A stretch of 64,000 nt of DNA, taken from contig NZ_FNOG01000001.1 of the NCBI RefSeq assembly GCF_900106525.1, positions 891,634 to 955,633 on the forward strand, in the 5' to 3' direction. Every line of letters starts with the position of its first letter. Position 1 is the stretch's first letter. Below are positions 1 through 60,543 of the stretch, piece after piece. This DNA is from Lysobacter enzymogenes (lineage in GTDB: Bacteria; Pseudomonadota; Gammaproteobacteria; Xanthomonadales; Xanthomonadaceae). The position numbers and the translations under genes were made by a program. Below the pieces are notes generated by a model. It made no database searches. It worked only from the letters and a program-made list of their open reading frames with translations, and was not told where the DNA came from.

Positions 1-193
1 AGCGTCGGGGCTGAAGCCCCTCCCACAAGAGCGAGGGCGCGGGCGCTGCATTGCTTGGCTTTTTGTGGGAGGGGGCTTTAGCCCCGATGCTTTCCGATCC
101 GCTCGCGACGGAGATTCCGGCGACTTGAGCCAACAGCCTCGGGGCTGAAGCCCCTCTCACAAGAGCGAACGCGCCGACGCGGCTCGGCCGGGC
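1..193. repeat. Palindromic GGGGCTGAAGCCCC-type repeats downstream of the TPR gene
   Basis: Two inverted copies (about 4-28 and 62-87) of a repeat with the core CGGGGCTGAAGCCCCTCCC face each other, and a third copy lies at about 138-166. The paired arms could fold in RNA and end transcription of the minus-strand gene that stops at 194. The same repeat family reappears, with core variations, near 24.3 kb and in the 141-bp tandem array near 60 kb. No gene is seen here. Confidence 0.75.
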
Positions 194-2065
194 TCAGGCC
201 GTCGCGCGGCAGGCTTCGGCGCGGTCCAGGTCGTGGCGGTAGAGCTCCTCGCGCCGCATGGACTTGTGGATCTCGGCGCGGTTCTCGTAGTGCTCGGGAT
301 TGTCCGGGTCCAGCGCGATCGCCCGGTCCATGTCGGCCAGCGCGCGTGCGTAGTCGCCGCGGCCGTAGTGCAGCACGGCGCGGTTGACCCGCGCGGCGAC
401 CGAGTCGGCGGCCAGGGCGATGGCGGCGTCGTAGTCGGCCAGGGCGGCGTCGGCGTCGCCAGATTGCTCGTGGATCTCGGCGCGGATCTGATGGATCTCC
501 GGCTGCTGCGGGTTGAGTTCCAGGCTCAGCGCGAAGCTGTCCAGCGCCGCCTCCCAGTCGCCGGTCTGCGACTGGCACACGCCGCGGTTGAAATGCACTT
601 CCGGATACGGCGCGCTGTAGCGCACCGCCAGTTCGTACAAGGCCAGCGCCTCCTCGAACCGGCCCTGGCGCTGCAGCAGGTTGCCGCTCTCGTTGTAGTA
701 CTCGGAGTAGTACGGATCCATCTCCATCGACTTGCGGTAGTACGCCAGCGCGTCCTCGGCGCGGTCGAGCATCACGTAGACCTGCGCGGTGTTGTACTGC
801 AGCACCGAGCGGTGCAAGGCGTGGCGCTCGTCGCCGAGCTCGCGGGTGAGCAGGGCGTAACCTTCCTGGCACAGCGCCAGCGCCTCGCGCGGCCGGCCCT
901 GGCGCACGCGCAGGAACGCCAGCCCGTTGTCGATGAACACCCGCAGGAAGGTCTGGTCGGCGTCTTGGATGGCGCCGCGCGCGGCGGCGATGTCCTGCGC
1001 GGCGAGCAGGATGTAGTGCTCGGCCAGGGCGAGGTCGGGCGTGCGCGCGTAGCGCAGGTGGATCATCGACAGCAGGTAGTTCATCTTCGCGCGCAGCTCG
1101 CGGCGGCGCAGGTGCGGTTCGGCGCGGGTCAGGATCAGCTCCAGCGCCAACTCCTGGCGGCCGGCGCTGACCAAACCCTGGAAGATATTGCCGATGTAGT
1201 TCCAGCGCGCGTCCTCGTCGTCGCCGACCATGTCCTCGAAGTGCGCCAGCACCGTATCGGCGAAGCTGGCCGACTCGTGGTAGTAGCCGTAGTGGTTGCT
1301 CAGGCACAGCGCGCGCAGGGCCGCGCGCGCGGCCAGCGCGTCTTCGCCGCGGCCGCGGTGGTAGACGATCAGGGCCGGCGCGTGGATCTCCCAGGCCAGC
1401 GGCTCGCCGCGTTCGAGCCGCGGCTGCAGCGCGGCGTAAGCGGCGTCGTCGAGCGCGGCCGGCGCCGGCGGCGCTGCGCCGGCGTCGCTCGCGGCCTGCG
1501 CGTGCAGGCCCGGCGCGCGCTGCGCCAGCGCCTGGGTGTCGAGCGCGCTGTACACGATCACTTCGATGCCGTGGGCGGCGCCGCGCCGCGCCAGTTCGGC
1601 GAAGAAGCGCGCGGCCAGGTGCTGAGCGTGGTCGTAGCCGAACGCGACCACCTGCCAGCGCTGCTGCGGCGCGAGCGCGCGCTTCCAGTCCAGCATCAGC
1701 CCGACCAGCCCGTGGACCAGGCGATAGGCGCGGTCGAGCGGGAAATTGCGGGTGCGCTCGGCGTCGTGCGCGGTTTCGGTCAGGCAGGCGTACTTGAGCG
1801 CGATGCGCTCGCGATGGCGCGCCAGGGCCATGTGCAGTTCGGGGTTGTGCGCGTCGATGAGATCGTCGCGGCCGCGCTCGCCGAGCTCGCGCCAGGCCAG
1901 TTCGGCCAGATCGGCGACGCCGGCCCAGGTGCCGCCGCGGTGGAAATCGGCGTCGATGGCGAGGCGGCGATCGGGCGCGCCGTCGGGCGCGGCGCCGTCG
2001 GCGCCGGCCGGGCGCAGGCGCAGCGTTGCGGCGGTGGGCACAGTGACGTCGGCGGCGAGGTTCAT
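194..2065 (-). CDS. TPR-repeat protein of the peptide/M50 unit
   Basis: A 623-residue protein with no signal peptide or membrane segment. Residues about 1-330 match no family I recognise; they contain a long helical region rich in Leu, Ala and Arg. From about residue 330 to the end there are several tetratricopeptide repeats, with phrases such as AEDALAYYRKSMEMDPYYSE, FEEALALYELAVRYSAPYPE and YARALADMDRAIALDPDNPE. TPR arrays bind peptides or proteins. The gene lies 40 bp downstream of the M50 protease gene on the same strand, so the two are probably co-transcribed with the small peptide gene upstream. No helix-turn-helix is visible. Its role as a receptor or scaffold for the peptide is inference. 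Confidence 0.8.
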   Translation of the reverse strand: MNLAADVTVPTAATLRLRPAGADGAAPDGAPDRRLAIDADFHRGGTWAGVADLAELAWRELGERGRDDLIDAHNPELHMALARHRERIALKYACLTETAHDAERTRNFPLDRAYRLVHGLVGLMLDWKRALAPQQRWQVVAFGYDHAQHLAARFFAELARRGAAHGIEVIVYSALDTQALAQRAPGLHAQAASDAGAAPPAPAALDDAAYAALQPRLERGEPLAWEIHAPALIVYHRGRGEDALAARAALRALCLSNHYGYYHESASFADTVLAHFEDMVGDDEDARWNYIGNIFQGLVSAGRQELALELILTRAEPHLRRRELRAKMNYLLSMIHLRYARTPDLALAEHYILLAAQDIAAARGAIQDADQTFLRVFIDNGLAFLRVRQGRPREALALCQEGYALLTRELGDERHALHRSVLQYNTAQVYVMLDRAEDALAYYRKSMEMDPYYSEYYNESGNLLQRQGRFEEALALYELAVRYSAPYPEVHFNRGVCQSQTGDWEAALDSFALSLELNPQQPEIHQIRAEIHEQSGDADAALADYDAAIALAADSVAARVNRAVLHYGRGDYARALADMDRAIALDPDNPEHYENRAEIHKSMRREELYRHDLDRAEACRATA

Positions 2066-2105
2066 CGCAATCTCCTTATGCGTGGAAAGCCGGATCGATG
2101 GAAAG

Positions 2106-3368
2106 TCAGCGCCGCCGCAGCCACAGGTACATGCCGGTGGCGAACAGGGCGACGGAAATGGCGGCGAACGCGGTCGCGTCCAGGGCCGCGGCGCGGGTCG
2201 CGGCCGGGCTGGCGAAGATGTCGTAGGCGCGCACGATGTAGCGCGTGAGGGTGGGAATCAGCACGAACGCCAGCAGCGCCAGCGCCGAGATCCGCCCGAC
2301 CACCCACAGCAGCGAGAACGCGCGCAGCACGCCCAGATTGCGCGGCACCAGCGCGCCGGGCGCGGCGGCCGCGCCGATGCGCCCGCCGCTGAAGCGGTGC
2401 AGGCGATCGCGCAGGTACAGCCGCGCCTGCTGGTCCAGGTCGGGATGGCCGAAGTAATTGCACGCCACGTAATAGAAATCGGTGCGCAGGAAGATGTTGA
2501 ACTGCCACGACAAGGTGATCAGCAACTGCAGCACCAGCGCCTGCAGCAACTGCACCAAGAACACATTGCCGCCGCGGTCGAGCAACCAGCCCACGGTCAG
2601 GCTCAGCAGGGCGATGTTGAGCACGTCGACCATCATCCCCGCCAGCAGCGGCAGGTAGCGCTGGCGCCGCGGCAGCGACAGGATGCCGGTGAGGTCGGCT
2701 TCGGCGACCAGGTCCCACAGGCGGTTGCCGATGCCCAGGCGCGAACTGACGCCGTAGCGGGCGGCGGCCAGCATGTGGCCTAGCTCGTGCAGCATGATGG
2801 TGACGAAGTACAGGCCCAGCAGCGCGACCAGGGTCAGGGTCAGGTGCTGTTCCAGATAGAAGGCTTCCAGGTTCGGGCGCAGGCGCGGGTCGAGCCAGGC
2901 GCTGTAGCCGGCATAGGCCAGCACGCCCAGGTACAGCGCCAGCGTCGCCGGCGAGAACAGCGCGCGCGCCAGCGCGGTGTTGGCGCGGAACGACAGGCGG
3001 CGGTCGCCGGCGGCGGATTCGTCCACGCGGCGCTGGTAGGCGTCGCGTTCGTGCGGCGGCAGGATGAAGCCGATCTCGCGCAGCTGGACGAGGAAATCGT
3101 CGATGTCGACGGTTTCCGCGGCGGCCGAGTCGGCGCCGGTCTCGCCGTTCGCGTTGTCCGTATTCGTGGCGTCGGCCGCGCGCGCAGCGAGCGCGCGCTT
3201 GATCGCGCCGACGCTGTCGCCGGCCTGCAGCCGTTCGACGATGCGCAGCCCGTCCTCGGGAAATTCGTAGAACTCCCCCAGCTCGGCGTTGCCGATGTAA
3301 TAGGCCTCGCCTTCGCGCTGCACCGACAGCGGAATCACGTAGTAAGTCTGGTCGTCGCTGTTCGCCAT
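2106..3368 (-). CDS. Membrane M50-type zinc metalloprotease with PqqD-like N-terminal domain
   Basis: A 420-residue protein. Residues about 10-105 resemble the PqqD/RiPP-recognition fold, including a closing segment FLVQLREIGFIL. A hydrophobic region follows, with the zinc motif HELGH at 194-198 inside a membrane segment, as in site-2 protease (M50) and 'putative peptide zinc metalloprotease' proteins. At least four further membrane segments lie towards the C-terminus. Proteins of this type process or export small peptides, and a PqqD-like domain would bind a leader peptide. The neighbours fit this: a 32-residue peptide gene upstream and a TPR gene downstream. A third zinc ligand could not be assigned by eye. 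The assignment to M50-like is fairly sure; the peptide-processing role is inferred from context. Confidence 0.8.
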   Translation of the reverse strand: MANSDDQTYYVIPLSVQREGEAYYIGNAELGEFYEFPEDGLRIVERLQAGDSVGAIKRALAARAADATNTDNANGETGADSAAAETVDIDDFLVQLREIGFILPPHERDAYQRRVDESAAGDRRLSFRANTALARALFSPATLALYLGVLAYAGYSAWLDPRLRPNLEAFYLEQHLTLTLVALLGLYFVTIMLHELGHMLAAARYGVSSRLGIGNRLWDLVAEADLTGILSLPRRQRYLPLLAGMMVDVLNIALLSLTVGWLLDRGGNVFLVQLLQALVLQLLITLSWQFNIFLRTDFYYVACNYFGHPDLDQQARLYLRDRLHRFSGGRIGAAAAPGALVPRNLGVLRAFSLLWVVGRISALALLAFVLIPTLTRYIVRAYDIFASPAATRAAALDATAFAAISVALFATGMYLWLRRR

Positions 3369-3397
3369 CGCGGGGCCGTCGGGTTGCGGTGTGGAGC

Positions 3398-3429
3398 AAG
3401 CGGGCCGGCGATCGCTCGCCGGCCCGCTT
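3398..3429 (-). terminator. Strong hairpin between peptide gene and M50 gene (attenuator-like)
   Basis: A perfect 14-bp inverted repeat (3398-3411 with 3416-3429, 4-nt loop) lies between the peptide gene stop and the M50 gene start. No T-tract follows it on the minus strand. It would therefore act as a partial terminator or as an mRNA-stabilising stem, letting the precursor be made in excess over the downstream enzymes. That arrangement is common for ribosomally made peptides. Confidence 0.6.
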
Positions 3430-3602
3430 CCTCACTTCGCGTATGAAGCGGGCGCACCATGACGTCGCTGCGCGCGCCGCTTGCGCGGACGCGGCAACTT
3501 CGCCGGAATGGTGGAAGATCCGCCAATCCTTGGCGGCGCCCGATCATGCGCACGCCGACGCTGCGGCCGCACGGACGCGGCCGTTCGCCGACGCGGCTCA
3601 AA

Positions 3603-3701
3603 TCACAGCTGCGGCCACCAGGGCAGGCACAGCCAGATCGGGTACGCGGCGACCGAGGTGGTCTTCAGCTTCTGCACTTTCAGGATCGAAATCTTCTTCA
3701 T
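3603..3701 (-). CDS. Small Lys-rich/Trp-rich peptide, candidate RiPP precursor or signal peptide
   Basis: A 32-codon ORF starting with ATG, preceded by AGGAAG seven bases upstream. The N-terminal half (MKKISILKVQKLKTTSV) is basic and resembles a leader. The C-terminal half contains Tyr, Pro, one Cys and three Trp and ends LPWWPQL. It is the first gene upstream of a PqqD-like/M50 protease and a TPR protein on the same strand, and the stretch upstream is AT-richer, as expected for a promoter. There is no radical SAM, lanthipeptide, YcaO or cyclase gene nearby. It could be a RiPP precursor whose only visible maturase is the M50 protein. It could instead be a secreted signalling peptide, or a leader peptide for attenuation. 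Confidence 0.6.
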   Translation of the reverse strand: MKKISILKVQKLKTTSVAAYPIWLCLPWWPQL

Positions 3702-4092
3702 GTTGAGACTTCCTGGTTGAGTTGAAAGCGGCGCCCGCTTGCGCGGACGGAGCATGCCGGCGCAGCATCGGCGGTGAAACCGGCGTTGCGATGCGACATC
3801 CTCGGTGCCTTGGCTATCACGGTTTTTTTTGCTCTTGCAAGACGAGTTTTCGATGCATTTTCGATAGCCAAACCGACCGCTTGGATCAGTGACGAGGCGG
3901 AAGTTTTTTGTTCAAATCTGCGACTGGGTCGACGGGCCGATCTGACGGTTTTCGACGGTATTTTGTTCGGGAGCCGGCTATGGAGCGCGGAACTGTGTTT
4001 TTTTGTTGCGGTGCGACATGGGTCTGCGACGGAATCGGAACGAAAAATCGGGCCGCTGCCGCATTCGCGCACGGCACTGAACGGGGCGCGGC
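3702..4092. promoter_or_regulatory. Divergent intergenic region, peptide unit / prmC
   Basis: This gap is about 390 bp and clearly more AT-rich than its surroundings, with T-runs near 3828, 3903, 3960 and 4008. It should carry the promoter of the minus-strand peptide unit and that of prmC on the plus strand. No reliable -35/-10 pair could be assigned by eye, and the ORFs that cross it look like chance. Confidence 0.45.
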
Positions 4093-4929
4093 GTGAACGC
4101 CGCCGCGTTGCCGGTCGGCGAACTGCTCAAGCGCGCGCGCGGCCGGGTCGACCCGGCCGAGGCCGAATTGCTGCTGGCCGCGGCGCTGCAACGCCCGCGC
4201 GCCTGGCTGTTCGCCCACGACGACCACGTGCCCGACGATGCGGCGCTAGCCCGCTTCCAGGACTGGCTGGCGCGGCGCGAGGCCGGCGAGCCGGTGGCCT
4301 ACCTGCTCGGCCGGCGCGGCTTCTGGCGCTTCGATCTGCAAGTCGGCCCGGCCACCTTGATCCCGCGTCCGGAGACCGAGCGCCTGGTCGAGCTGGCGCT
4401 GGACCGCCTGCCGGCCCAGGCCGAGGCGCGCGTCGCCGACCTGGGCACCGGCAGCGGCGCGATCGCCCTGGCGCTGGCGGCCGAGCGGCCGCGCGCGCAG
4501 GTGCTGGCGGTGGACCTCAGCGCGCAGGCGCTGGCGGTGGCGCGCGCCAACGCCGACGAACTGCGGCTGCGCAACCTGGAGTTCCGCCTCGGCGACTGGT
4601 TCGCGCCGCTGCAGGGCGAGCGCTTCGATCTGATCGCCAGCAACCCGCCGTACATCGAAGCCGCCGACCCACACCTGCGCCAGGGCGACCTGCGTTTCGA
4701 ACCGCTGACCGCGCTGGCCTCCGGCGCCGACGGGCTGGACGCGATCCGCACCATCGCAGCCCAAGCGCCGGCGCACCTGCGCCCCGGCGGCTGGCTGCTG
4801 ATCGAGCACGGCTGGGACCAGGGCCCGGCGGTGCGCGCGCTGCTGCTCGCGGCAGGGCTGGCCGAAGTCGCGACCGAACAGGATTGGGAGCAACGCGACC
4901 GCGTCAGCCTCGGCCGCTGGCCCGGCTGA
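4093..4929 (+). CDS. prmC: Peptide chain release factor N5-glutamine methyltransferase
   Basis: PrmC (HemK) methylates the Gln of the GGQ loop of release factors RF1 and RF2 using S-adenosylmethionine, in the cytoplasm. The 278-residue protein has the family layout: an N-terminal helical domain (about 1-75), the SAM-binding motif DLGTGSG at 116-122, and the substrate-glutamine motif NPPY at 184-187. The length is normal for the family. The gene stands alone between the peptide unit and the iminopeptidase gene. Confidence 0.95.
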
Positions 4930-5087
4930 GCGGCCGCGGCCGGCTCGCCGGCCCGAGTTCCGGCCCGGCCTCGCCCCGACGCATGGCCCGAAGCGCGGTC
5001 CACCGCTGCGACCGAACCGCCGGACCGGGCACCGATCGCCCCGGCCCGGCCGGCTAAACTGCGGGCATCCCGACTGCGAGGCCCGCG

Positions 5088-6029
5088 ATGCGCACGCTCT
5101 ATCCCGAACTCGAACCTTTCGACACCGGCACGATCCAGGTCGACGACCGCCACAGCCTGTATTACGAGCAGTGCGGCAATCCCGACGGCAAGCCGGTGGT
5201 GCTGCTGCACGGCGGGCCCGGCGGCGGCTGCAGCGCCAAGATGCGCCGCTTCCACGACCCGGCCAAGTACCGCATCGTCCTGTTCGACCAGCGCGGCAGC
5301 GGGCGCTCGACGCCGCACGCGGACCTGGTCGACAACACCACCTGGGACCTAGTCGCCGATATCGAGAAGCTGCGGGTCAAGCTCGGCGTGGAGCGCTGGC
5401 AGGTGTTCGGCGGCTCGTGGGGCTCGACCCTGGCGCTGGCGTATGCGCAAACCCACCCGCAGCGCGTGACCGAGCTGGTCCTGCGCGGCATCTTCATGCT
5501 GCGCCGCTGGGAGCTGGAGTGGTTCTACCAGGAAGGCGCCTCGCGCCTGTTCCCGGACGCCTGGGAGCACTACTTCAACGCGATTCCGGCGGTCGAGCGC
5601 CACGACCTGATCAGCGCCTATCACCGCCGCCTGACCAGCGACGACGAGAAGACCCGCCTGGACGCCGCGCGCGCCTGGAGCGTGTGGGAAGGCGCGACCA
5701 GCTTCCTGCACGTCGACGCGGATTTCGTCAGCGGCCACGAGGATGCCCAATTCGCCCTGGCCTTCGCCCGCATCGAGAACCACTACTTCGTCAACGGCGG
5801 CTTCTTCGAAGTCGAAGACCAGTTGCTGCGCGACGCGCACAAGATCGCCGACATCCCCGGCGCGATCGTGCACGGCCGCTACGACGTGGTCTGCCCGGTG
5901 CAGAACGCCTGGGAACTGAAGAAGGCCTGGCCGAAAGCCGAGCTGGAGATCACCCCGGCCTCGGGCCATTCGGCGTTCGAGGTCGAGAACATCGACGCGC
6001 TGGTGCGCGCGACCGACCGCTTCGCCTGA
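5088..6029 (+). CDS. pip: Proline iminopeptidase (S33 alpha/beta hydrolase)
   Basis: A 313-residue cytoplasmic aminopeptidase that releases N-terminal proline from peptides. Family marks are the oxyanion loop HGGPGGG at 41-47, DQRGSGRS at 67-74, and the nucleophile elbow GGSWGS at 108-113 with Ser110. The Asp (GRYDVVCP) and His (SGHSAF) of the triad are near the C-terminus. The length matches the classical Xanthomonas-type enzyme. It is a single gene with no obvious partner. Confidence 0.95.
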   Translation: MRTLYPELEPFDTGTIQVDDRHSLYYEQCGNPDGKPVVLLHGGPGGGCSAKMRRFHDPAKYRIVLFDQRGSGRSTPHADLVDNTTWDLVADIEKLRVKLGVERWQVFGGSWGSTLALAYAQTHPQRVTELVLRGIFMLRRWELEWFYQEGASRLFPDAWEHYFNAIPAVERHDLISAYHRRLTSDDEKTRLDAARAWSVWEGATSFLHVDADFVSGHEDAQFALAFARIENHYFVNGGFFEVEDQLLRDAHKIADIPGAIVHGRYDVVCPVQNAWELKKAWPKAELEITPASGHSAFEVENIDALVRATDRFA

Positions 6030-6547
6030 GCGCAGGCGCGGCGCGGACGGCGAGGCCGTCTGCGCCGCGCGATTGCGGCGCGCCTGGGTGGCGCGCTTTG
6101 GCGCGGTAAATAGTTCTATGCAGTGACATTGCGGTGCCTGCTCGGGATCTGAGCATCACCGTCGCGGCACCGATCGGCTCGCGCGACGGCCGCGAGCGAA
6201 AGCGAACGGCTTGGCGATTCTTGCGCAGTTGCGCGAATCGGCGAGCGAACGCTACATCACCGCTAGCCTCGCAAGACATCGAAAGCGAGTTTTTGCCACT
6301 CAGTTAATGTCACCGGAAATGTGCAACGCATTTCCGCCAGGCCGATTGCGATCAACGGCTTGCGTGTTTCGTGCATCCGAATTCTGCGGAATTCGGCGAA
6401 ATTTTCCCGCTTGACTGACTTTTCCCATCGGCGCTGCAATCGCCCGCCGATCAGGTCCGGCGTCGTCGTCGACGCACGCCGCGCGACCGGATCGGGCGAC
6501 GACGAAGCATGCGCGGGCGCTTGGAAGGCGCCGCACGACGAGGGGAA
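6030..6547. promoter_or_regulatory. Upstream region of the polysaccharide operon with an 8-bp inverted repeat
   Basis: About 500 bp without a convincing gene. It contains the perfect inverted repeat CCGAATTC-TGCG-GAATTCGG (6377-6396), followed by AT-rich sequence. As the only sizeable gap before eight overlapping genes, it is the likely operon promoter region. The palindrome could be an operator or an RNA hairpin in the leader. Confidence 0.4.
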
Positions 6548-8920
6548 ATGTTCGCAACCAGGACTTATGCGCTCAACGCGCAACTGCGGCTGACGCCGAT
6601 CCATCAACTGCGCTCGCTGCCCGCGCGCGCGCCGACCGGCTATGTGGCGCAAGGCGAAGATCCGCAGTTCGAGGTCGGCAGCGCGCAGGGCGAATTGCCG
6701 CCGCCGGGATGGTACGTGTTGGACCTGCGCTTCGAGCTGGAGGAGGGCCGCATCCTCGCGCCCTGCCTGTATCCCGATTTCGGCGCCGGCGTGTCCGAAG
6801 CCTTGCGCATCGGCCTGGCCGAGCCGGGCGACGACGGGCGCTCGCGCAGCGTGGTGTTGATCGGCTCGCGCCTGCATCGGCTGCGCTTCGACCCCAGCGA
6901 GCATCTGGCGCAGTTCGCCGTGCGCGAGTTCCGCTTGCGCCGGGTGTCGCGGATGCGCGCGGTGTGGGAACTGCTGTGCGGGATCCAGCGCGCGCGCCGC
7001 GAGGTGCTGTGCGAAGAGGCGGTCGGCGCCGGCCTGCGCTTCCTGCGCGCGGCGCTGCGCGGGCGCATCGGCGAGGGCGGCAAGACGCTGCTGCAGCATT
7101 ACCGCCGCGCGCTGCGCCAGGGCGCGCATTCCTATCAGCATTGGCTGGCGCGCTACGACCGCGCGGCGGCGGCAGAATCGGCGGCGGCGAAGTCGCCCGC
7201 CGCCGAACGCGCGCCGAGCGAGCCAGCGCTCCCTGAGCCTGTCGCCAGCGCATCCGTGCCGACGATTTCGATCGTGCTGCCGGTGCGCGACCCGCCCTTG
7301 CCGTGGCTGCGGCGCTGCCTGGACAGCGTGCTGGCGCAGACCTGGCCGCACTGGCAGCTGTGCATCGCAGACGACGCCTCGCGCTCGGGCGCGGTGCGGC
7401 GCCTGCTGCGCGAGTACGCCGCGCGCGACCCGCGCATCGCCCTGTGCCTGCGCGACAACCACGGCCATATCTGCGAAGCCAGCAACAGCGCGATCGAACT
7501 GGCCCAAGGCAGCCACCTGGCCTTCCTCGACCACGACGACGAACTGGCGCCGCAGGCCCTGGCCGAAGTCGCGCGCGCGATCGCCGAGCATCCGCGCGCG
7601 CGCCTGTTCTACAGCGACGAGGACAAGATCGACGAAAGCGGCCGGCGCTTCGAACCCAACTTCAAGCCGGCCTGGAACCCCGACCTGCTGCGCGCGCAGA
7701 ACTACATCTGCCATTTCGTCGCCATCGACGCGGCGCTGGTGCGCGAACTCGGCGGCCTGCGCCCCGGCTACGAAGGCGCGCAGGACCACGACCTGCTGCT
7801 GCGCTGCGCCGAACGCCTGGACGACGCGCAGATCGTGCACATCCCGCGGGTGCTGTACCACTGGCGGGTGCTGCCCGAATCCACCGCGCTGTCCGGCGGC
7901 GCCAAGCCCTACGCGCTGGAAGCCGGCCGCCGCGCGATCGAGGAACACTACGGCCGCACCGGCGTGCGCGCCCGCGTCGAGGTCACCGAACACGGCTACT
8001 ACCGCAGCGTGCGCGGCCTGTCCGAGCGCCCGCTGGCCTCGCTGATCGTGCCCACCCGCGACCGCGTCGGCCTGCTGCGCACCTGCGTGGAGAGCGTGCT
8101 GCAGCGCACCGCCTACCGGCCGCTGGAACTGCTGGTGGTCGACAACGGCTCCAGCGAGCCCGAGACGCTGCGCTACCTGGACGAACTGCGCCAGCGCGAA
8201 CACGTGCGGGTGCTGACCTGGCCGCACCCGTTCAATTTCTCCGCCATCGTCAACTTTGCTGCCGCGCAGGCGCGCGGCGAAGTGCTGTGCCTGCTCAACA
8301 ACGACACCGAAGTGATCGCCTCGGACTGGCTCGACGAACTGGTCTCGCACGCGGTGCGCGAGGACGTCGGCGCAGTCGGCGGCATGCTCTATTACCCCAA
8401 CGACACCATCCAGCACGCCGGCGTGATCCTCGGCATCGGCGGCGTCGCCGGCCACGCCCACGGCCACCTGCGCCGCGCCAGCAACGGCTACCTCGGCCGC
8501 GCCGGCGTGGTCCAGAACCTCAGCGCCGTCACCGGCGCCTGCCTGGCCCTGCGCCGCACGCTGTTCGCCGAAATCGGCGGCATGGACGAAACCCTCGCAG
8601 TGGCCTTCAACGACGTCGACCTGTGCCTGCGCCTGCACGCGCGCGGCTACCGCAACGTGTGGACGCCGCATGCGGAGCTGTATCACCACGAGTCGGCTTC
8701 GCGTGGGCCGGAGGATACCCCGGAGAAACGCGAGCGCTTCCTGGCCGAGTCGGCGGCGATGCAGCGCCGCTGGGGCGACCTGCTGGCCAACGACCCGGCC
8801 TACAACCCGAATCTTTCGCTCGAAAGCCTGCATTTCGACCTGGCGTTTCCGCCGCGGTCGCGGGCGAGTCGGGCCCTGGGTGCCATCCTCCCTCCGAACG
8901 CGATTCCGGTGAATGCATGA
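6548..8920 (+). CDS. Bifunctional family 2 glycosyltransferase (two GT2 domains)
   Basis: A 790-residue cytoplasmic protein, probably building a surface polysaccharide repeat. Residues about 30-150 form a non-catalytic beta-rich domain. The first GT2 domain starts near residue 239 (ISIVLPVRDPP) with the metal/nucleotide motif DHDDE near 327. The second starts near 498 (ASLIVPTRDR) with NNDTE near 582. The ATG at 6548 follows AGGGG closely; a longer in-frame version could begin at 6509 without a clear ribosome site. Its stop overlaps the start of the ABC permease gene (ATGA), which shows translational coupling. The sugars transferred cannot be told from sequence. Confidence 0.9.
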   Translation: MFATRTYALNAQLRLTPIHQLRSLPARAPTGYVAQGEDPQFEVGSAQGELPPPGWYVLDLRFELEEGRILAPCLYPDFGAGVSEALRIGLAEPGDDGRSRSVVLIGSRLHRLRFDPSEHLAQFAVREFRLRRVSRMRAVWELLCGIQRARREVLCEEAVGAGLRFLRAALRGRIGEGGKTLLQHYRRALRQGAHSYQHWLARYDRAAAAESAAAKSPAAERAPSEPALPEPVASASVPTISIVLPVRDPPLPWLRRCLDSVLAQTWPHWQLCIADDASRSGAVRRLLREYAARDPRIALCLRDNHGHICEASNSAIELAQGSHLAFLDHDDELAPQALAEVARAIAEHPRARLFYSDEDKIDESGRRFEPNFKPAWNPDLLRAQNYICHFVAIDAALVRELGGLRPGYEGAQDHDLLLRCAERLDDAQIVHIPRVLYHWRVLPESTALSGGAKPYALEAGRRAIEEHYGRTGVRARVEVTEHGYYRSVRGLSERPLASLIVPTRDRVGLLRTCVESVLQRTAYRPLELLVVDNGSSEPETLRYLDELRQREHVRVLTWPHPFNFSAIVNFAAAQARGEVLCLLNNDTEVIASDWLDELVSHAVREDVGAVGGMLYYPNDTIQHAGVILGIGGVAGHAHGHLRRASNGYLGRAGVVQNLSAVTGACLALRRTLFAEIGGMDETLAVAFNDVDLCLRLHARGYRNVWTPHAELYHHESASRGPEDTPEKRERFLAESAAMQRRWGDLLANDPAYNPNLSLESLHFDLAFPPRSRASRALGAILPPNAIPVNA

Positions 8921-24253: not shown

Positions 24254-24652
24254 GCCGGTCGAGTGTGGTCGGGCTTGTCCAAGCCTGTCTGGGTCTGCCT
24301 GGGCCTTCCTGTGGGAGGGCCTTCAGGCCCGAGGCTCTTTTCTCAGGTCGCTGCGATCTGGAACAACAGCGTCGGGCCTGAAGGCCCTCCTACAACAGCC
24401 AAGCGCTGAAGAACCGGCGAACGCGGAGATCCGGACGCTGCCCAGGTCCTGCCCCGTGAGCGTCGGATCTCCGCGTTCGCGCGGAGGCGTAAGTTCGGCG
24501 CGCCGGCGCAGGTTCGGGTGCTCCCTGTAGGAGCGGCGCGAGCCGCGACCGCGACACTGCGATAACGACGCAGGTCACCGTAGTTGCGGCGTAAATGTGA
24601 TGTCGCGGTCGCGGCTCGCGCCGCTCCTACAAAGGGCGGGCGCGGCTTTCGT
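24254..24652. repeat. Cluster of three different inverted repeats between pntAA and the DUF3106 gene
   Basis: First pair: GTGGGAGGGCCTTCAGGCCC (from about 24310) mirrored at 24371-24397. Second pair: a perfect 17-bp repeat, 24417-24433 with 24464-24480 (core GCGGAGATCCG). Third pair: GTAGGAGCGGCGCGAGCCGC near 24526, mirrored at 24601-24632. No gene is seen. The repeats can end transcription from both converging sides. Confidence 0.8.
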
Positions 24653-60026: not shown

Positions 60027-60543
60027 CTTTTGTAGGAGGGACTTCAGTCCCGACGCTTTCCGCTCAGCCAGCTGCGTAGCCCCGGAACGAACAGCGTCGG
60101 GACTGAAGTCCCTCCCACAAGGCCGCCTTTGCTCGAGGTCTTTTGTGGTGGTTCTCATGTGGCCTGGCTTTTGTAGGAGGGACTTCAGTCCCGACGCTTT
60201 CCGCTCAGCCAGCTGCGTAGCCCCGGAGCGAACAGCGTCGGGACTGAAGTCCCTCCCACAAGGCCGCCTTTGCTCGAGGTCTTTTGTGGTGGTTCTCATG
60301 TGGCATGGCTTTTGTAGGAGGGACTTCAGTCCCGACGCTTTCCGCTCAGCCAGCCGCGTCGCCCCGGAGCGAACAGCATCGGGACTGAAGTCCCTCCCAC
60401 AAGGCCGCCTTTGCTCGAGGTCTTTTGTGGTGGTTCTCATGTGGCATGGCTTTTGTAGGAGGGACTTCAGTCCCGACGCTTTCCGCTCAGCCAGCCGCGT
60501 CGCCCCGGAGCGAACAGCATCAGGACTGAAGTCCCTCCCACAG
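60027..60543. repeat. 141-bp tandem array made of GGGACTTCAGTCCC-type palindromes
   Basis: The mark TGTAGGAGGGACTTCAGTCC starts at 60031, 60172, 60313 and 60454, a period of exactly 141 bp with almost no change between units. Each unit contains the palindrome and its inverted copy GGGACTGAAGTCCCTCCCAC about 60 bp later, plus a constant spacer (GCTCGAGGTCTTTTGTGG). The last unit is cut short at the inverted copy. Open frames across it are a result of the period being a multiple of three. Confidence 0.93.

Follow-up and report, generated by a model that had tools for sequence, protein, structure and literature searches.

What does a 32-codon reading frame with a basic start and a tail rich in tryptophan, proline and cysteine do beside a protease gene and a gene for a tetratricopeptide repeat (TPR) protein? 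The question is raised by one end of a 64,000-nucleotide stretch of Lysobacter enzymogenes DNA (RefSeq assembly GCF_900106525.1, contig NZ_FNOG01000001.1, positions 891,634 to 955,633), which was analysed as a whole and is called the window here. In transcription order on its minus strand, a peptide open reading frame (ORF; 3603-3701) is followed by an M50 protease gene with an HELGH motif (2106-3368) and by the TPR gene (194-2065), and a PrmC-type methyltransferase gene reads in the opposite direction from 4093. The three-gene cassette has the look of a minimal pathway for peptide maturation, so far uncharacterised, which is rare and occurs in unrelated bacteria. We consider it probable, with substantial room for doubt, that this is a minimal unit akin to those of ribosomally synthesised and post-translationally modified peptides (RiPPs), in which a protease guided by a RiPP recognition element (RRE) would release a short core and the TPR protein would serve as scaffold or sensor.

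Neighbouring M50 and TPR genes of this kind were found at eight loci: three in the genus of the window, three in a second family of the same order, one in an alphaproteobacterial metagenome-assembled genome (MAG) and one on a Streptomyces plasmid. The order peptide, M50, TPR is the same in all eight, and the flanking genes differ across these four lineages. An earlier reading of this DNA, made from the letters alone (the sequence-only reading), had pointed to the two protein genes, both of which were found as claimed on the minus strand, and to a short ORF with a good ribosome site, which was likewise confirmed (32 codons, AGGAAG 7 nt 5' of the ATG). It had also proposed a check for M50-TPR loci that lack a short ORF, and none did. 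Because all eight loci with neighbouring M50 and TPR genes carry such an ORF upstream, we regard it as a real gene, with the following parts.

3603-3701, minus strand: precursor-like peptide gene, 32 amino acids and a stop, MKKISILKVQKLKTTSVAAYPIWLCLPWWPQL, kept in 8/8 M50-TPR loci.
3654-3701, minus strand: leader-like conserved region, residues 1-16, closing with K13-T-T-S16 at a putative leader/core border (alignment of the eight peptides).
3606-3653, minus strand: core-like tail, residues 17-32, with YPIWLC as an instance of [YF]PxWxC and a variable end (same alignment).

Over codons 1-23, the genes of the window, G303 (peptide MKKISILKVQKLKTTSVAAYPIWFCLPWPRL) and G306 (peptide MKKISILKVQKLKTTSVAAYPIWVCLPFPWPRF) show two to four synonymous and no non-synonymous nucleotide differences; past codon 23, these three genus peptides diverge in residues and length. 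The tails of the G303 and G306 peptides, and that of the MAG peptide (MKKISVLKVQKLKTTSVAFYPIWECWPFPF; locus L006), differ from the tail in the window. The remaining peptides come from G291 (MKKFVVREVETVKTTSAMYECRMCFPDWYCDIIEGPQVPGDGF), G1451 (MKKFVVREVETVKTTAAMYECRVCFPEWLCAIIEGPASN), G1453 (MKKFQIREVETVKTTAAMYECRVCFPDWLCDIIEGPQD) and the Streptomyces plasmid (L019, NZ_CP109482), where MRKISVRRTEPIKVTSAPFSHQPAIVPV forms the end of a 57-amino-acid ORF annotated as hypothetical. With starts chosen by us at the Met of M[KR]K, the alignment has K[TV]T[SA] from residue 13 in 8/8 peptides and YxxxxCxP in 7/8, and [YF]PxWxC, a motif read off the alignment post hoc, is common to the seven proteobacterial peptides. 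A model built from the genus peptides only and run on 3605 short ORFs recovered the MAG peptide at E 2e-18 and the G291 peptide at E 0.0049 (leave-one-out), and the G291 peptide alone as query found the window peptide at E 0.0014. Scans of ten peptides with NCBIfam and Pfam gave sub-threshold matches only, and tblastn of the peptide against plasmids gave no match.

The unit is a cassette, present or absent as a block. Within the genus, the M50 and TPR genes occur in the same 3 of 20 genomes (the window's own, G303 and G306). Seventeen genus genomes lack the unit; we read the prmC region in seven of these and found no peptide, M50 or TPR match there. In six of the seven, prmC adjoins the PKD/F5-F8 gene located past the TPR gene of the window, and in the seventh (G258) this gene is missing as well. 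The neighbours scanned in the genus encode PrmC, an alpha/beta hydrolase, the PKD/F5-F8 protein and AhpC. Elsewhere, the flanks hold a malic enzyme gene upstream (G291), a Na/H exchanger and a TetR gene (MAG) or transposase genes (Streptomyces plasmid). Sequence identity of the M50 proteins to that of the window is 51% for the MAG, 31% for G291, 31-32% for G1451 and 31% for G1453. The last two were found blind: a profile of TPR N-terminal domains (A9) matched 3 of the 233 genomes of the G291 family, namely G291, G1451 and G1453, and both newly matched genomes proved to have an M50 gene with the peptide upstream (E 1.4e-15 and 6.7e-17 with a six-peptide model on 148 short ORFs).

Across wider samples, the unit was rare. 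Among 299 genomes sampled from the order, two carried it, G291 and that of the window itself, and in the order of the MAG the MAG alone carried it (1/246 genomes). The M50 profile matched at least 1 of 369 genomes of the class (the starting genome) and at least 3 of 398 of the phylum, two of them non-members, and the TPR profile matched at least 1 of 349 genomes of the phylum; these class and phylum counts are lower bounds, with at most four or five candidates scored per genome. No M50 relative was found in viral contigs and phages. Three matches were rejected as members: G206 (L013), the third match in the order, has a longer M50 protein (714-amino-acid ORF), no leader motif and no TPR match, and in G748 and G704 (L014 and L015), frames of 716 and 599 amino acids match part of that M50 profile, with no TPR match in either.

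The protease is the second element on which our explanation depends, and its features are as follows.

2106-3368, minus strand: RRE-M50 intramembrane metalloprotease, 420 amino acids (motif, Pfam and profile evidence).
3063-3338, minus strand: RRE-type (PqqD-like) domain, about residues 11-102 (PDB sequence-profile search, Pfam in relatives, low-confidence model).
2775-2789, minus strand: HELGH zinc motif, residues 194-198, with H194, E195 and H198 invariant in 11/11 aligned relatives.
2478-2480, minus strand: Asp297 of RTDFYY (residues 295-300), with Thr296 and Asp297 invariant in 11/11.

By M50 precedent, Asp297 is presumably the third zinc ligand. The sequence-only reading had called the N-terminus PqqD-like, a claim for which the single protein gives sub-threshold evidence and profiles of the family give support. 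Taken alone, the window protease remains sub-threshold in Pfam (M50 at E 2.5e-4, PqqD at E 0.15), and a PqqD search of the whole 6.26 Mb assembly at E 0.001 did not report its gene and matched two other places. Among 11 relatives, Pfam at E up to 1 placed M50 in nine (best 2.2e-8) and PqqD in three (best 7.6e-4). A profile of the N-terminus built from 12 sequences, six from M50-TPR loci and six from the ThiF-M50 loci described below, had TfuB1 (6jx3) as its top match among PDB sequences at E 1.1e-4 and TbiB1 (5v1u) as its second at 0.014; we take both to be lasso-peptide RRE proteins. With a profile of the full-length protease, RseP was matched on the zinc motif (0.0035), and TfuB1 and TbiB1 on the N-terminus (0.012 and 0.082). 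The protease N-terminus, as far as these profiles indicate, resembles a RiPP recognition element, and the order strand-strand-strand-helix-helix-helix in a low-confidence model fits one.

In the mechanism that we propose, the leader would be the front part of the 32-residue peptide (MKKISILKVQKLKTTS), which is basic and beta-prone. The RRE domain would bind this leader and thread the C-terminal part of the peptide to the zinc site within the membrane. A cut there, at the leader/core border, would release a short Trp/Pro/Cys peptide with the [YF]PxWxC core at or across the membrane; export and an activity of the product are presumed. The TPR protein, with a degenerate STAND-like N-terminal domain, would be a dedicated partner acting as scaffold, chaperone or peptide sensor. 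Two features of a RiPP pathway were found: a ribosomally made precursor, its leader conserved and its core variable, beside processing genes (8/8 loci), and a leader-recognition domain, by profile match to TfuB1 and TbiB1. To this extent, the minimal peptide-maturation system suggested by the sequence-only reading stands. The locus would represent a compact orphan pathway of three genes, which include a defined precursor with a conserved core motif and a protease with a recognisable domain for leader binding. Should a product form from these genes alone, this would show how little machinery leader-guided maturation needs and whether a TPR/pseudo-STAND protein can be the missing component.

Precedents for such a protease exist in the literature. 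The daptide class came to light through site-2 proteases with an RRE fused to the N-terminus, and MpaP is described as an intramembrane peptidase that depends on an RRE and takes off the leader (PMC10036551); EpeP, TglG and TmoG are further M50 precedents (PMC10885120). In architecture the unit is like daptides, with a putative N-terminal RRE on an intramembrane site-2 protease and a short precursor, leader removal by the RRE-protease being a daptide feature (PMC10036551), and by its anatomy our protease may work like MpaP. Its match to the daptide family NF041824 is weak and does not reach the equivalog cut-off (protein P0002, E 0.0048, 16.1 of 300 bits). In contrast to daptides, none of the eight unit peptides ends in Thr or holds ELExMEAP, a TPR protein is present instead, and no gene like MpaB, MpaC, MpaD or MpaM is among the three genes or the Pfam-scanned neighbours (four in the genus, three in G291 and two in the MAG, others being read as ORFs only). 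With no Thr end and none of the class enzymes in its three genes or the neighbours scanned, the unit is not a daptide. The excerpted main text on RRE-Finder (PMC7470986) mentions neither M50 nor protease nor TPR, and we found no published description of a peptide-M50-TPR unit in the open-licence literature.

Several results weigh against the RiPP-like explanation. No tailoring enzyme was recognised in the three genes with Pfam or NCBIfam, and the scanned neighbours belong to unrelated families; the peptide may therefore be unmodified, in which case the strict label RiPP would not apply. At the Streptomyces locus, the RefSeq ORF begins 29 residues before our chosen Met, the peptide lacks [YF]PxWxC, the genus-only model gave it E 1.9 and rank 12 among the 3605 short ORFs, and the G291 query reached it at E 0.077; gene order and position count for as much as sequence in its membership. 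The peptide and M50 genes of the MAG are separated by 766 nt with an extra ORF (about 5207-5923; L006 5235-5919). G1451 and G1453 are close kin of G291 (M50 68-69% and TPR 70-72% identical), the six-peptide model included the G291 peptide, and the G1453 contig stops within the TPR gene; given this kinship and the contig end, the blind search tests gene content more than distance. Beyond TfuB1 and TbiB1, the PDB profile search lists unrelated proteins from E 0.037, so the TbiB1 match is near noise. The protease model is poor, with a predicted local distance difference test score (pLDDT) of 48.7, and a fold search with it gave no match. A search of window 1-4200 for sigma-70-type promoters gave no match, and what speaks for a role of the TPR protein in the unit is its co-occurrence.

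This TPR protein is made up as follows.

194-2065, minus strand: TPR protein, 623 amino acids (Pfam, model).
1538-1966, minus strand: N-terminal alpha/beta domain, akin to STAND-like domains (hhalign of A8 against A9; P-loop stretch absent by eye).
200-1270, minus strand: helical TPR array (Pfam, model, fold search).

Pfam returned many TPR matches and one regulator-type name, BTAD at E 0.17, which is a TPR-like domain. No helix-turn-helix (HTH) family was found in the Pfam and NCBIfam scans, which agrees with the earlier statement that no DNA-binding domain is visible. The model has a mean pLDDT of 74, with the array mostly above 80, and its fold search gave general TPR superhelices only. Against A9, which comprises the N-domains of TPR proteins from systems without M50 in Mesorhizobium, Agrobacterium, Vibrio and Streptomyces, the N-domain aligned over 141 columns (hhalign probability 96.3, E 2e-9). 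In one relative, L025, AAA_16 is matched below its cut-off (E 6.6e-4, 20.7 bits against 32.6), which suggests that these N-domains are STAND-like; in the alignment with L025-L027, the stretch of the Walker A P-loop is missing by eye from the window protein. The reverse search with A9 found the unit TPR protein in G291 (1.8e-11), G306 (1.1e-5) and the MAG (4.1e-4) and, at 0.001, gave no match in G000 or G303, and a PDB search with the STAND-like N-domain found nothing below 0.081. TPR proteins are also found in a RiPP context in FxSxx-COOH systems, which have a radical SAM partner, and relative L027 matches the corresponding family NF040586 at E 0.0063 (15 bits, cut-off 300). In contrast, the window protein has no NF040586 match, the peptides have no FxSxx motif and the unit has no radical SAM gene. 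A TPR-annotated gene of biphenomycin clusters proved to be an arginase (PMC12707348, PMC12257519), and caution is therefore due, as TPR proteins can hide enzymes.

The competing explanation that survives best, although we hold it to be unlikely, makes the TPR protein the cytosolic receptor of an unmodified peptide signal, a short hydrophobic pheromone released by the M50 protease. Eep/RseP-type proteases release such pheromones, STAND-TPR architecture is typical of sensors, and the Rgg/SHP systems with Eep combine a short hydrophobic peptide, M50-type processing and a TPR-type partner, just as our unit has M50, TPR and a short hydrophobic tail and no tailoring enzyme. However, the TPR protein carries no HTH or other effector family and by eye no P-loop, the protease carries an RRE, which sets the unit apart from Rgg/SHP, and the scanned genus neighbours are not importers or regulators. 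The WW dipeptide occurs in the window peptide only (1/8). The analogy with streptococcal WW pheromones drawn by the sequence-only reading is not supported, given this count and a TPR protein that lacks HTH and has an N-terminus akin to STAND-like domains.

A RiPP-like pathway could also be scattered, with an unlinked tailoring enzyme that modifies the Trp/Cys core before M50 cleavage. We rate this as rather improbable. The recurrence of [YF]PxWxC in 7/8 peptides and the two PqqD-domain places elsewhere in the genome of the window would fit it, as would the protease relatives: ThiF genes lie beside them in 11/11 loci checked, on actinobacterial and Priestia plasmids, and their M50 proteins are 28-38% identical to that of the unit. 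These ThiF-M50 loci, which we group with ThiF-type RiPPs such as enterofaecin and IndA/IndF (PMC12150305), share with our unit related M50 proteins and, in 8/11, a short ORF beside the operon. They differ in that tblastn with two ThiF proteins at 1e-4 matched 11/11 ThiF loci and 0/8 unit loci, and in that a TPR match was found in 0/11 ThiF loci. Moreover, the same three genes recur together in each of four distinct neighbourhoods, an argument against an obligatory partner that is unlinked; no search for tailoring enzymes covered the whole genome.

Somewhat less likely still is an antimicrobial unit, in which the Trp/Pro/Cys core would be bacteriocin-like and the TPR or M50 protein would provide self-protection or export. 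Consistent with this are the short Trp/Pro-rich tail with its variable end, the patchy presence in the genus (3/20), the position among transposase genes on the Streptomyces plasmid and the precedent of EpeP (PMC10885120); there is, however, no recognised immunity or ABC exporter gene within the unit, and the proposal overlaps with the RiPP-like explanation, from which it differs in the role of the product.

The gap between the peptide and protease genes contains one further element.

3400-3427, no strand assigned: 28-nt palindromic stem-loop in the peptide/protease gap, single copy in the window, no T-run.

It is identical in G303, and in G306 the stem is kept and the loop changed; the whole gap folds with z -5.15. 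A short ORF upstream of this strong conserved hairpin could be an attenuator that controls M50-TPR expression, a highly improbable reading given that amino acids are conserved from Gammaproteobacteria to the alphaproteobacterial MAG, the C-terminus changes in length and residues, the adjoining protease has an RRE and the hairpin has no terminator-like T-run. Within the RiPP-like unit, the hairpin may adjust how much precursor is made relative to enzyme.

Short ORFs, most of them unannotated, come into view in three sets: next to M50-TPR, ThiF-M50 and TPR-exporter genes. In 8/11 ThiF-M50 loci, the best short-ORF match to the unit peptide model adjoins the operon and has an I-x-V-R-K-like front; taken singly the matches are weak (E 0.0098 to 0.42), one peptide is common to five loci, L035 has none, and the peptides of L022 and L037 were chosen by eye. 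A (V/I)RKA leader motif is described for EnfA of enterofaecin (PMC12250964). On five Streptomyces plasmids (L017, L018, L020, L021 and L024), ThiF and M50 genes are followed by a conserved small ORF, MEIKVRKVEDVKATGLQV. This ORF is not in the feature tables of L017, L018 and L021, where a BTAD regulator is annotated, and the L020 and L024 records are unannotated. The Priestia koreensis plasmid (L036, NZ_CP061869) has, at 1991-2276, three identical tandem 24-amino-acid ORFs (MKSMKKIVVRKLATVTVPQLRPGT) upstream of genes for ThiF, a substrate-binding protein, M50 and MFS, and looks like an orphan ThiF-M50 RiPP cluster. As a control, the peptide model was applied to 20 loci outside it, and an automated count placed its top short-ORF match next to the operon in 7, where 1.4 would be expected. 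Inspection added L039, whose TPR start lies upstream of the span, and L017 and L018, in which the ORF and the M50 end overlap, for a total of 10/20; five of these are Streptomyces loci that share one peptide. In the remaining ten, RTTTPY loci included, the top match lies elsewhere.

The third set comprises seven loci with TPR relatives and no M50 match (L025-L030 and L038). In 6/7, an upstream ORF has RTTTPY or RTTTSY near its end, the Klebsiella locus being the exception. These ORFs lie directly upstream of the TPR gene:

L025, 4527-4592.
L026/L067, across the record start.
L027, 4617-4685.
L028, 4484-4561.
L029, ending at 4566.
L038, 3875-3943.

They are absent from the feature tables (the L029 record has no annotation), and their hosts are rhizobia, Agrobacterium, Microvirga, Vibrio and Streptomyces. 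Exporter genes lie downstream in 5/7 loci (MFS in L025, L026, L028 and L030, LysE in L038), none is listed for L027, and L029 was left out. The related TPR N-domain and the short ORF directly upstream are shared with our unit; the differences are the missing M50 match and an ORF whose conserved part is the C-terminal end, and the unit peptide model does not find these ORFs, so that their likeness to the window peptide is by eye. Two Nonomuraea loci (L034 and L039), each with a TPR relative, a leader-like ORF (E 0.7 and 0.017) and no M50 match in the stretch, were rejected as members of the unit.

We tentatively suggest, as a possibility with the balance against it, that STAND-derived TPR proteins mark an undescribed superclass. 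In it, a constant partner would bind a short leader with [KR]-T-T at its end, and interchangeable modules (RRE-M50; MFS, LysE or S9 peptidase) would be attached. The unit of the window would be the smallest self-contained version, with a [YF]PxWxC peptide and no conventional tailoring enzyme.

Two minor observations concern TPR genes. In Vibrio coralliilyticus (L028, CP020455), the gene at 4622-6891 is split into two overlapping frames, a possible frameshift. Just past the TPR gene of the window, an inverted repeat resembling repetitive extragenic palindromes (TCGGGGCTGAAGCCCCTCCCACAAGA) is present in two copies, at 5-30 and 139-164; further copies with three mismatches lie at 24307-24332 and, as three copies spaced 141 bp apart, at 60097-60122, 60238-60263 and 60379-60404.

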